Made by a program: the position numbers and the translations under genes
Origin: Miniimonas arenae
GTDB lineage: Bacteria; Actinomycetota; Actinomycetes; Actinomycetales; Beutenbergiaceae
Assembly (NCBI RefSeq): GCF_006351005.1
Contig: NZ_VENP01000027.1
Location: forward strand, 1 to 43,737
DNA: 43,737 nt
Reading direction: 5' to 3'
In this document: positions 36,537 through 39,171 of the stretch, in pieces
How the letters are laid out: every line of letters begins with the position of its first letter
Numbering within the stretch: the stretch's first letter is position 1
The notes under the pieces: generated by a model
The model's database searches: none
Seen by the model: only the letters and a program-made list of their open reading frames with translations
What the model was told of the DNA's origin: nothing

Positions 36537-37118
36537 TCAGCCGACCTGGGAGTGCGGCCCCGTGCCGTGGTAGGTCCGGTCGACGTACACCAGCCGCGGG
36601 GCGCTGGGCTCGCCGTCGGGCGAGAGATCGTCGGCGAGCTCGAGCACGCTGGCGACCACGAGGTAGCTGCTGCCCGCGCGGACGCGCTCGTCGATCGCGA
36701 TACGTGCCCACGCGTTGACATCGGCGAGCCGCGGCTCGCCCGTGGGCAGCCACGTCAGCGGGACGCCAGCGAAGCGGTCGATCCCGGGGGTCGCGAAGCG
36801 CGTCGAGAGCTGCGCGTGGTCGTGGGAGAGGAAGTGCACGACGGCGGAGCTCGCCTCGCGCAGCGCCGGCCACGACGAGGACACCTCCGTGATGGAGAAC
36901 GCGAGCACGGCCGGATCGGCGGACACCGAGATCACCGACGTCGCGGTGAAGCCGACGGGGTCGCCGTCGGGCCCCGCGAGAGTCACCACCGCGACCCCCG
37001 CGGGGTGCCGGCGGAAGAGGTCCTTGAAGGTGCGCGGCGTCACGGAGCCGGACGCGGCGGGGGAGACGTCAGCGCTCACGGACGCACGGTCCTCGGTTCG
37101 GGGCAGGTCGAGGGTCAC
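36537..37118 (-). CDS. Flavin reductase family protein
   Basis: A 193-aa protein of the HpaC/flavin-reductase-like (split-barrel FMN-binding) family, which supplies reduced FMN or FAD to two-component monooxygenases. FRRHPAGVAVVTL near residue 39, GFTATSVISVSADPAVLAFSI near 58 and LSHDHAQLSTRFATPG near 96 are family hallmarks. Start: GTG at 37118 lies 7 nt after TAGCGT (complement of 37126-37131), so it is probably leaderless. A longer reading to 37232 would overlap the -35 box of the divergent promoter and has an odd His-rich start, so it was rejected. Its likely partner is the divergent LLM monooxygenase. Confidence 0.87.
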   Translation of the reverse strand: MTLDLPRTEDRASVSADVSPAASGSVTPRTFKDLFRRHPAGVAVVTLAGPDGDPVGFTATSVISVSADPAVLAFSITEVSSSWPALREASSAVVHFLSHDHAQLSTRFATPGIDRFAGVPLTWLPTGEPRLADVNAWARIAIDERVRAGSSYLVVASVLELADDLSPDGEPSAPRLVYVDRTYHGTGPHSQVG

Positions 37119-37225
37119 GCTGTCGACGCTAGGACGATCCGGGCGCTCGCGGCGAGCGGACGTGACGGGTTCCACGATGTGGACACCGCCGTCGGGGTGA
37201 TGGCCTTGCTCACCCTCGTGATGAG

Positions 37226-37254
37226 TTGACACGACAACCTCTCCGGCCTACTTT
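37226..37254 (+). promoter_or_regulatory. Near-consensus sigma-70 promoter of the SAM-IV/LLM transcript
   Basis: TTGACA (37226-37231), a 17-bp spacer and TACTTT (37249-37254). Transcription should start near 37261, two bases before the riboswitch. Confidence 0.85.
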
Positions 37255-37262
37255 GGGGACAC

Positions 37263-37378
37263 GGTCTCGAGTATCAGCGACAAGCCCCGGCTCGCTGGTC
37301 GGCAACCCTCCTCCTGCGGTGGGGTGCCCCGGGTGACGACCAGGTCCTGGCTACCTGCCCAGGGCAAGCGCTCGTCCG
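37263..37378 (+). promoter_or_regulatory. SAM-IV riboswitch
   Basis: The aptamer follows the actinobacterial SAM-IV pattern as I recall it from the mycobacterial example: GGTC opens P1 at 37263, then CAAGCCCCGGCT, then CGGCAACCCTCC, GCGGTGGGGTGCCCCGGGTGA and the closing GACC at 37338-37341. A CCTGG/CCAGG hairpin and GGCAAGCGC follow, as expected for the peripheral stems and pseudoknot. SAM binding would report methionine/SAM sufficiency and lower expression of what follows. The expression platform is not obvious: there is no terminator with a U tract, and the next element is the Shine-Dalgarno of a leader peptide. Confidence 0.93.
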
Positions 37379-37398
37379 CTCCCGCGGAAGAACGAGGA

Positions 37399-37500
37399 AT
37401 GAACACGATGGTCACGCGAGTGCAGAGCCCCTCTCCGCTGCTTCCCGCCTCCTCCTCGATGATGTGTGGCACGCCCTGCGCGTGCATGTGTATGCGCTGA
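37399..37500 (+). CDS. Met/Cys-rich leader peptide, 33 aa
   Basis: An ORF of 33 codons begins with ATG at 37399, preceded by GAGGA 3-5 nt upstream, and ends with TGA at 37498-37500. The last 13 residues are MMCGTPCACMCMR, with four Met and four Cys, far above chance in this GC-rich genome. It lies just after the SAM-IV aptamer and 159 nt before the monooxygenase start. I infer a ribosome-stalling or speed-sensing leader for sulfur amino acids: low Met- or Cys-tRNA would halt the ribosome near the end of the ORF and change folding downstream. Actinobacterial cysteine-rich attenuator ORFs are known in mycobacteria, but one with both Met and Cys behind a SAM riboswitch is new to me. Translation is not proven. 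Confidence 0.6.
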   Translation: MNTMVTRVQSPSPLLPASSSMMCGTPCACMCMR

Positions 37501-37533
37501 CGGCGGCCGGAACGGGATCTTCTCCCACCAGCT

Positions 37534-37595
37534 GCTGGCCCACCAGAGCCAGCCTCCCGCCGTCGTGCCCCGGCTCGCGTTGCTCGCGGGCGCCC
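37534..37595 (+). promoter_or_regulatory. Hairpins between the leader peptide and the LLM gene
   Basis: Two stems can form: GCTGGC (37534-37539) with GCCAGC (37548-37553), and GCTCGCG with CGCGGGC (about 37573-37591, one G-T pair). They occupy the place where an attenuator would be expected. No U-rich tract follows, so Rho-dependent or translational control is more likely than intrinsic termination. Confidence 0.35.
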
Positions 37596-37659
37596 GACCT
37601 CGCCTCCTACGGCCCCGGTCGGCCACACATCACCCTGCTCGTGCAGAAGAGGACCACTC

Positions 37660-38667
37660 ATGTCTGTCCAGAACCTCCCCACCCCCGCCGACAGCTCCAG
37701 CCCCGCCTTCACCGGCCGCCTGCTCCTCGGCGTCGACCTCACCACCACGGGCGCCAAGGCGCCCCTGCACCGCCGCAGCTCGGCCGGGACCGGCCAGCGC
37801 GTCTCGCTCGGTGACGTCGCCGACTACGTGGCGCTGTCGCGCGACGCCGGCGCCGAGCTTGTCACGTTCGGCGAGTCCTTCCGGCTTGACGACGCCCCCC
37901 GCAACGACGCCTGGCTCGACCCGGCCGTGATCGCCTCCCGCCTCGCCGCGGCGGGCCTGCTCGACGGCGGGCCGCGCGTGGTCTCGGCCCTGCCGGCCGG
38001 TTTCCTCGACCCGATGAGGCTCGCCCGCGCGATCGCCGGCATCCACGCCCGATCGGGCGGACGCGCCGGCTGGCAGCTGCCGACGTCGACGACGTCGGGC
38101 GGCGTGCACGCCGAGGTGCGTCGCGTGTGGTCGCTCACGCCCGAGGCCCGCACGGGCGGCCGCGCGCCGCTCCTGGTGACCGCGCCGACCGACCCGGCGA
38201 CCGCCGTCGTGGCCGGTCGGTGGTCCGACGTGGTGCGCCTGCGCGTCACGGACGTGGCCGAGGCGCGCCGTCGCCGGCTTGCGATCCGCACGGCGGCCGA
38301 GCAGGCGGGTCGCAACCCCGACGACGTGCGCGTCGTGGTCGACGCCGTCACCGTGATCTCCAACGACGCCGCGAGCGCGCTGTTCCGCGCCGACCTGCTG
38401 CGCGACCTGGGCACCGTCGAGGGGCCCGAGCCGCTCACGGTGGCCGGGACGGGCCGCGGGGTCGCGGACGTGCTTCAGGAGTGGGTCGAGGCGGACGCGG
38501 CCGACGGCTTCGTGGTGCTGCCCGGCTCGCTGCCGACCGATGTGCTGGCGATCGCCGGATCGCTCGCCCCCGAGCTGCGCGAGCGTGGCCTGCTGGCGCC
38601 CGCTGACCCGGTGGTGGCCGAGGCGCGGGTCGGTGGTGCGGCGCTCTCGCTGCCCGAGCTCGTCTGA
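37660..38667 (+). CDS. LLM-class (luciferase-like) flavin-dependent monooxygenase
   Basis: A 335-aa protein with the TIM-barrel layout of bacterial luciferase/SsuD-like enzymes: GRLLLGVDLTTTGAKAP at the start, DVADYVALSRDAGAELVTFGE near residue 50 and a C-terminal VADVLQEWVEADAADGFVVLPGSLP near 268, typical of the family. It has no other cofactor domain and needs reduced flavin, which the divergent flavin reductase could supply. A SAM-IV riboswitch and a sulfur-amino-acid leader peptide precede it, so a role in releasing sulfur from organosulfur compounds is likely; the substrate is unknown. The ATG at 37660 has AGAGGA upstream. A terminator follows. Confidence 0.85.
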   Translation: MSVQNLPTPADSSSPAFTGRLLLGVDLTTTGAKAPLHRRSSAGTGQRVSLGDVADYVALSRDAGAELVTFGESFRLDDAPRNDAWLDPAVIASRLAAAGLLDGGPRVVSALPAGFLDPMRLARAIAGIHARSGGRAGWQLPTSTTSGGVHAEVRRVWSLTPEARTGGRAPLLVTAPTDPATAVVAGRWSDVVRLRVTDVAEARRRRLAIRTAAEQAGRNPDDVRVVVDAVTVISNDAASALFRADLLRDLGTVEGPEPLTVAGTGRGVADVLQEWVEADAADGFVVLPGSLPTDVLAIAGSLAPELRERGLLAPADPVVAEARVGGAALSLPELV

Positions 38668-38851: not shown

Positions 38852-38900
38852 GTCGGCTCGTCTCGCCTCGTCTGGTCGACAGGCGGCGGGCGCGTCACAG

Positions 38901-38944
38901 GCACGGCCGGGGCACGGCCGGGGCACGGCAGGGGCACGGCAGGG
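38901..38944. repeat. 11-bp tandem repeat, four units
   Basis: Four copies of GCACGGC(C/A)GGG run head to tail. Apart from this array, the terminator and the box at 38838, I see no gene I can support in 38668-39021. Confidence 0.9.
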
Positions 38945-39021
38945 GCGCTGCAGGGCACTGTGCGGCCAGACGTGCGAGACTGTGCGCTGGCCCTGCCCAG
39001 GGCACTGCGGAAGGAGACAGC

Positions 39022-39171
39022 ATGGCGAGCTCGCTGGTGATCATGGCCGAGGCGGCCCACGAGTCGGCGTACCACAGCCCCTACCTGTACGGCGGAGTGG
39101 CGCTCGGCGTCCTGCTGTTCCTCCTCCTCGCGACCTACGCGTTCCGCAGCGTTGGCACGCGTCGCCGCTGA
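39022..39171 (+). CDS. Small single-pass membrane protein, 49 aa
   Basis: An ATG with a strong AAGGAGA Shine-Dalgarno opens a 49-codon frame. Residues 1-20 are polar ([20 protein letters not shown]), followed by one hydrophobic helix ([17 protein letters not shown]) and a basic end RSVGTRRR, so N-out, C-in by the positive-inside rule. It overlaps the nadD start, which suggests translational coupling. Similar tiny membrane proteins upstream of nadD are frequent in actinobacterial genomes as I recall. Function unknown. Confidence 0.85.

Follow-up and report, generated by a model that had tools for sequence, protein, structure and literature searches.

A SAM-IV riboswitch followed by a Met/Cys-rich leader peptide ahead of a sulfur-poor flavin monooxygenase gene: a possible serial two-sensor leader in Miniimonas arenae and its relatives

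In a 43,737-nucleotide (nt) stretch of the 3.4 Mb genome of the actinobacterium Miniimonas arenae (contig NZ_VENP01000027.1 of assembly GCF_006351005.1, positions 1 to 43,737; hereafter the window), the gene for a luciferase-like monooxygenase (LLM) of the flavin mononucleotide (FMN)-dependent type is preceded by an S-adenosylmethionine (SAM)-IV riboswitch aptamer and, between aptamer and gene, by a short open reading frame (ORF) that ends in a cluster of methionine (Met) and cysteine (Cys) codons. The same arrangement recurs in relatives, Serinibacter (Beutenbergiaceae, Micrococcales), Occultella, Ruania and Pseudactinotalea among them, giving 33 loci in four families. We lean towards reading it as a serial two-sensor 5' leader, in which SAM-IV would gate a Met/Cys attenuator peptide with LLM expression as the output. 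The stricter proposal, that the riboswitch regulates the second sensor and not the enzyme, and that the whole works as a serial RNA AND gate for a sulfur-stripped LLM and, in the window's clade, a flavin reductase, we regard as evenly balanced.

In the reading we favor, SAM-IV would act on the translation of the 30-codon leader and not directly on the LLM gene. When SAM is low, the leader would be translated; if Cys-tRNA, and Met-tRNA where Met codons exist, were then poorly charged, the ribosome would stall in the Met/Cys block, and the stall would alter the downstream RNA such that LLM is expressed. High SAM would leave the leader untranslated and LLM off, and plentiful Cys and Met would let the ribosome reach the leader stop, with LLM again off, so that LLM would be made only if SAM and charged Cys/Met-tRNA were both low. 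The features of the locus are as follows.

37226-37254, forward strand: probable promoter by sequence reading, TTGACA (37226-37231), 17-nt spacer, TACTTT (37249-37254)
37263-37376, forward strand: SAM-IV riboswitch aptamer (RF00634; cmscan, 104.1 bits)
37371-37396, forward strand: hairpin after the aptamer, CUCGUCCGC/GCGG..ACGAG, in the minimum free energy (MFE) fold, reaching into the leader Shine-Dalgarno sequence GAGGA (37394-37398)
37408-37500, forward strand: leader peptide ORF of 30 codons (33 from 37399), end MMCGTPCACMCMR-stop, from ORF reading and relatives
37459-37497, forward strand: Met/Cys codon block ATG ATG TGT GGC ACG CCC TGC GCG TGC ATG TGT ATG CGC
37469-37485, forward strand: hairpin H1 within the leader ORF, Met-Cys codons on either flank, from covariation in six group A loci
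37499-37564, forward strand: helix H2, GACGGCGG at the stop codon (37499-37506) with CCGCCGUC (37557-37564)
37501-37659, forward strand: 159-nt C-rich spacer from leader stop to LLM start (C 45%, G 28%)
37660-38667, forward strand: LLM-class FMN-dependent monooxygenase, 335 amino acids (aa), from Pfam, NCBIfam, AlphaFold and Foldseek
36537-37232, reverse strand: divergent flavin reductase (PF01613, E 2.8e-28), likely partner of LLM

The SAM-IV aptamer named in the original prediction was borne out by the Rfam covariance model, whose match covers the full model (1-116) far above the gathering score of 38 (E 3.1e-18) and is the only SAM-IV match in the window genome; by this model the segment is a SAM-IV riboswitch, SAM binding itself being predicted. 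The predicted 33-codon ORF with its Shine-Dalgarno sequence is present at 37399-37500, but its start needs moving: because the first ATG (37399) directly abuts GAGGA and the ORF of relatives opens where the window has its second ATG (37408), the latter is probably the start, giving a peptide of 30 residues, MVTRVQSPSPLLPASSSMMCGTPCACMCMR. Met or Cys make up 8 of its last 15 residues, a number never reached when the 330 nt ahead of LLM were dinucleotide-shuffled 300 times (maximum 4; P=0.003, the floor of the test). The distance of 159 nt from leader stop to LLM start was also as predicted.

The leader recurs with the aptamer well beyond the window. An LLM profile (A1) run against 297 genomes of the order gave 57 matches at E <= 1e-25. 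Within the window's own family (f1), LLM was found in 23 of 24 genomes, in each case with SAM-IV and a Met/Cys leader upstream; the remaining genome, G003, which is 89% complete and has its SAM-IV at a contig end, gave no LLM match. SAM-IV also precedes LLM in families f13 (two genomes), f3 (three) and f9 (five). A short ORF rich in codons for the amino acids of the pathway and kept in relatives, the mark of a leader, was found in 31 of the 33 SAM-IV+LLM loci, where its last 15 residues include two or more Cys and a Met/Cys total of four or more, and in six LLM relatives that have no SAM-IV. The two other SAM-IV loci carry a weaker Cys leader; relatives with riboswitch and LLM but no such ORF, which would have spoken against the original prediction, were thus not encountered. 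In the shuffle test, 30 of the 33 loci lay at the floor (P=0.003) and the other three at P 0.007-0.027. At one locus, L210 (G002), LLM matches in two pieces and the first ORF stops at 209 aa, with SAM-IV and leader whole, reflecting either a decaying gene or an assembly error. In a class-wide sample of 394 genomes, the LLM clade appeared at E <= 1e-40 in two, both of the window's own family.

The other genes tested behind SAM-IV do not share the leader. Our control rule asked for a start codon within 85 nt of aptamer position 100, a length of 10-60 aa, and a final 15 residues with no fewer than two Cys and four Met/Cys, and was applied to 115 loci, a part of all SAM-IV matches (L004, which is cut off, was skipped). 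Nineteen passed, all of them upstream of this LLM clade, against 0 of the 96 others; by set, the positives were 16/29 from the family, 0/30 taken as top-scoring in the order and 3/56 from multi-copy genomes. Five of the negative loci (L141, L152, L156, L178, L183) precede other LLM genes confirmed by Pfam; L153, first taken by eye as a further LLM paralogue, was dropped for want of a Pfam match. Paired SAM-IV aptamers, divergent on opposite strands and ~155-230 nt apart, were seen at L195 (G293), G145:C2 77978-78365 and G258:C2 817005-817380.

The leader also occurs without the riboswitch. Six other LLM relatives in f9 (L130, L132, L133, L204, L207, L208) show no SAM-IV even at E <= 1 and have a Cys-rich ORF upstream, although several of these leaders open with GTG or TTG and their starts are unsure, and that of L133 falls outside the 330-nt test region and scored 0 in the shuffle test. 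On an LLM tree of 39 rows (quick method, some long branches, outgroup L211), SAM-IV presence needs at least four changes, two of them forced by well supported branches. Because SAM-IV presence changes on this tree while the Cys leader stays, the leader and the riboswitch are, as judged from sequence comparison, separable modules, the leader being the more constant one. Farther out, the eight loci examined (L196-L203) of 18 weaker LLM matches in f3, f14 and f20, the other ten being f20 loci, had neither SAM-IV nor a Met/Cys leader listed nearby. L211 (G109, family f14), a distant LLM relative that covers the L196 place at greater length, has an upstream ORF with two Cys (P 0.05) that ends RRHVDLCRTRSAACR. 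We take this ending to resemble a leader motif of Streptomyces sulfur genes.

What would place the two sensors in series is the start codon that the aptamer faces. In 13 ordinary SAM-IV loci of the window's family, one of which (L002) serves a class-V aminotransferase (Pfam), the start codon lies 32-40 nt beyond the aptamer tail. For the leader ATG the distance was measured in 24 loci and is 36-47 nt in 23 of them, the exception being L125 with 24 nt; this count leaves out three f3 loci in which the aptamer-tail match failed. In the window the distance is 36 nt from 37408 and 27 nt from 37399. Since the leader ATG thus sits at the usual SAM-IV target distance, SAM-IV probably controls leader translation, which is the simplest reading of the spacing. 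Translation of the leader is further suggested, indirectly, by its Shine-Dalgarno sequence and by indels falling mostly in threes.

The same spacing argues against two sensors working in parallel, with SAM-IV and leader each controlling transcription elongation, for example through Rho on the C-rich spacer, and with an additive or OR-like effect. We consider this unlikely, though it draws on several observations: C exceeds G in the spacer in 26 of 26 loci measured (C 38-48%, G 26-33%), the window has no intrinsic terminator, six LLM relatives manage with a leader and no SAM-IV, and Rho is suggested for mycobacterial Cys leaders in the available excerpt of PMC1262725. Against it stand the leader start at the distance normal for a SAM-IV target, which ties the sensors in series, and the 140-273 nt that separate leader stop and LLM start across loci. 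Rho acting on the C-rich spacer is also one possibility for how a stall would be read out in the serial arrangement.

The original prediction had proposed two possible hairpins in the 159 nt between leader and LLM; hairpins exist, one of them inside the leader and covarying in relatives, but there is no terminator-like site with a U run. In group A, the six loci that include the window, three of the seven pairs of H1 are changed on both sides, and all cells of H2, which belongs to the window MFE fold, are paired in 6/6 loci. Overall, 97.8% of cells in the group A structure are paired, and its covariation score was reached by 1 of 500 shuffles. The window MFE favors a hairpin other than H1, formed around the final Met-Cys codons, together with H2, so that alternative pairing in the leader region is possible in the model. 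The hairpin at 37371-37396 (MFE -12.1 kcal/mol, z -0.91) has similar sequence in four of the five other group A loci, L112 being the exception. The structures of groups B, C and F differ from that of group A.

Several results weigh against the serial reading. A search of 37150-37750 for an intrinsic terminator with a U run found none, and classical intrinsic-terminator attenuation was therefore dropped. When 26 loci were folded under constraint, with a ribosome occupying the first Met/Cys codon, the last one or the stop, the LLM ribosome-binding site became neither consistently easier nor consistently harder to reach: between the free RNA and a ribosome on the first codon, access became easier in 8, harder in 10 and stayed within 0.3 kcal/mol in 8, so that simple unmasking of this site by a stalled ribosome is not supported by the models. 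The changes in H2 are one-sided, with no two-sided change; the group A measure of further pair types lay below all 500 shuffles; and four pieces of the window leader have unremarkable fold energies (z -0.4 to -1.7). At the level of the peptide, the leader ends of L206 (RSCCR, three Met/Cys in the last 15) and L209 (CRCRR, two) hold merely two Cys and one or no Met, and group C leader indels that do not fall in threes stand at 15/48. Finally, ordinary SAM-IV targets are themselves poor in Met+Cys (0-0.85% in the seven examined), so that the sulfur-poor composition of LLM supports sulfur starvation generally and not this mechanism specifically.

Outside the window's group, the spacer of many loci carries a motif. 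GUGACA lies 77-121 nt past the leader stop, in the loop of a variable-stem hairpin, in 17 of 26 loci scanned (L117, L119-L121, L109-L111, L114-L116, L118, L124, L122, L123, L128, L129 and L131; the 27th, L015, could not be scanned), with the variant GUGGCA in L113, and is absent from the window's group A. Covariation of this hairpin in group C was mixed, its score being above all shuffles and its number of pairs with two-sided change being reached by 224/500. In six loci, Rfam at permissive settings detected no further RNA family downstream of the leader.

Both sulfur amino acids had been proposed as signals of the one leader, and here Cys and Met fared differently. Cys codons occur in every leader examined, with or without the riboswitch, but several Met codons occur mainly where SAM-IV is present: at least two in 26 of 27 SAM-IV loci outside f9 (range 1-5) and in two of the five SAM-IV loci within f9, as compared with 0-1 Met and 3-5 Cys in the last 16 residues of the six leaders without SAM-IV. 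This comparison makes Cys the core signal, with Met perhaps added to it. One could go further and suppose that SAM-IV controls the whole LLM message and that the leader is a Cys attenuator in which Met codons are incidental and Met-tRNA is not sensed. The universal Cys codons, the near absence of Met from the SAM-IV-less leaders and the 0-1 Met in three of the five f9 SAM-IV loci would fit; the frequency of Met outside f9, far above the one in 64 expected of codons, does not, and we judge this reading improbable.

Beyond the Met/Cys near the stop, the leader peptides diverge widely, as MATRVQTPTLRHSTTSSMCGMPMACLCMR, MAQAKVLRFGRTTRSNMGACMCMCPCTKA, MNQVRQYVPVSSTATCVMCCCSMSA and MTTHLSPRQITSRCGSSMCMCGRPCMSV illustrate, and the strings themselves vary (CMCMCPC, MCCCSM, ARMCRARMCC, MCMCGRPCM). 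A functional Cys/Met-rich peptide, metal-binding or modified, in place of a leader would be a very improbable explanation. Strings such as CMCMC and MCCC could bind Cu(I) or Zn, and the window peptide gave no match in Pfam or NCBIfam. Set against this, the N-terminal parts, the length and the Cys spacing of the leaders are unconserved; TGT, a rare Cys codon, is enriched in them, with 45 of 89 Cys codons (27 loci, identical ones counted once) as opposed to 2/45 in window ORFs and 69/523 in the ORFs of one relative, the background ORFs being chosen by simple GC rules and not by annotation; a covarying hairpin lies within the group A codon block; and the tested window neighbors are an Obg GTPase, an amino acid kinase with a PUA domain and the reductase, with no peptide-modifying enzymes. 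Indels in multiples of three amount to 48/63 inside the leader versus 45/220 in the spacer after it, counted pairwise and hence not independent. That the Met/Cys ORF merely reflects conserved RNA structure or chance is scarcely credible and contradicted across groups. The group A RNA is invariant around the block (AUGUGU ... UGUAUGCGCUGACGGCGG), but Met/Cys persist in groups B to F on different RNA, 30 of 33 loci reach the shuffle floor, and TGC and TGT are swapped at kept Cys codons in group C.

The enzyme behind the leader was correctly called an LLM-class flavin monooxygenase, as it matches PF00296 (E 3e-7) and has a related fold. Its best NCBIfam match is NtaA/DmoA TIGR03860 (E 1.5e-23) with 83.3 bits, short of the cut-off of 279.7, so that it is a relative of this family outside the curated subfamily. 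Foldseek on its AlphaFold model (mean pLDDT 78.2, ten sequences) gave NtaA (E 5.2e-18) and BdsA (E 2.1e-17), with YtnJ/CmoJ, DmoA and SfnG also matched, at 14-20% identity to the solved structures; hmmsearch against NtaA gave E 2.2e-21. According to the model, LLM has the bacterial-luciferase fold related to NtaA, BdsA and DmoA. Most likely it works as a two-component FMN monooxygenase and liberates sulfur from some organosulfur compound, a putative substrate class because several of its structural neighbors act on organosulfur compounds and others do not.

LLM contains no Cys and one Met besides the start, and none of the 39 LLM proteins on the tree (L124 cut to 274 aa) has more than one Met+Cys besides the start. 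By comparison, the median among 198 ORFs of at least 200 aa in 400 kb of G023, a selection that did not list that genome's own LLM, is 2.22% Met+Cys, with two ORFs at one or fewer and none at zero. The reductase of the window has neither Cys nor Met besides the start; those of four group A relatives have no Met/Cys from hit to stop, and the complete group C ones have one to three. A reductase homologue stands upstream on the opposite strand, adjoining or up to ~3 kb away, in 16 of 51 loci scanned, among which some represent one place twice and many are too short to reach it; from this gene neighborhood it is a putative and likely partner of LLM. An LLM with so little Met and Cys could be made during the very starvation that would stall the leader, and the sulfur-free LLM and window reductase, together with the LLM fold, are consistent with an enzyme produced in sulfur starvation. 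In Rhodococcus, according to the available part of PMC8557817, sulfur limitation goes with sulfur-sparing proteins. Sulfur sparing may characterize the SAM-IV regulon in general. Behind ordinary SAM-IV, the targets at L074 (449 residues) and L136 (323 residues) have no Met+Cys at all.

Upstream of the aptamer, the near-consensus promoter that had been predicted holds for its perfect -35 TTGACA but not for its -10, since the best candidate, TACTTT, agrees with the consensus at three of six positions and is weak; a consensus scan listed no promoter. Downstream, an 11-bp tandem repeat (GGCACGGCAGG) of about five copies lies at 38888-38955 between LLM and the next gene, and a 49-aa ORF with a hydrophobic stretch at 39022-39171, without any Pfam or NCBIfam match, precedes a gene that by eye resembles nadD.

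If the serial reading is true, the locus would be a natural, conserved and modular case of one nutrient being sensed by a metabolite riboswitch and an amino-acid attenuator together, present in four families, and the relatives with leader but without riboswitch would make the contribution of each layer comparable in nature. It also predicts a sulfur-scavenging enzyme, with organosulfur compounds as the putative substrate class, and brings together more than 30 short leader genes, of which the single one tested matched no family model. In the open-licence literature searched, mostly titles and the starts of abstracts, we found no description of SAM-IV combined with a leader peptide and no paper joining SAM-IV, monooxygenase and riboswitch; the parts are known separately, and their combination looks new within that literature.

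Compared with known systems, the aptamer is that of an ordinary SAM-IV riboswitch (RF00634), complete and 36 nt ahead of a start codon, except that this start codon belongs to a leader peptide and not to a structural gene; the available text of PMC8079986, for instance, lists SAM-IV before a cysteine desulfurase. The monooxygenase shares fold, sequence signature and a neighboring flavin reductase with NtaA, BdsA, DmoA and CmoJ, but is shorter than these and has low identity to the solved members. Among leader peptides, polycysteine attenuators of mycobacteria are said to have been described by Canestrari et al. in 2020. That work is cited in the part of PMC13236596 at hand, and cys leader peptides in actinobacteria appear in the excerpt of PMC1262725; as far as these excerpts go, such leaders resemble ours in having a short ORF with Cys codons near the stop, before sulfur genes and without a U-run terminator, and differ in that our loci have a long 5' leader with a SAM riboswitch ahead, mixed Met and Cys, and an LLM monooxygenase gene. 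The Streptomyces lividans metNIQ leader metL, MSTTSDRTPATEATTTPGARCMCRRMCAF, likewise mixes Met and Cys at the end of a leader peptide before sulfur genes, the authors naming Met and Thr; because its transcript reportedly starts at the leader itself, metL would have no preceding riboswitch (PMC8079986, available text). The Mg2+ leader with the proline peptide mgtL is another two-input RNA leader, and contiguous riboswitches, as far as the accessible part of PMC12452182 describes them, likewise take two inputs; unlike both, the leader described here places a metabolite riboswitch ahead of an amino-acid leader for the same nutrient.

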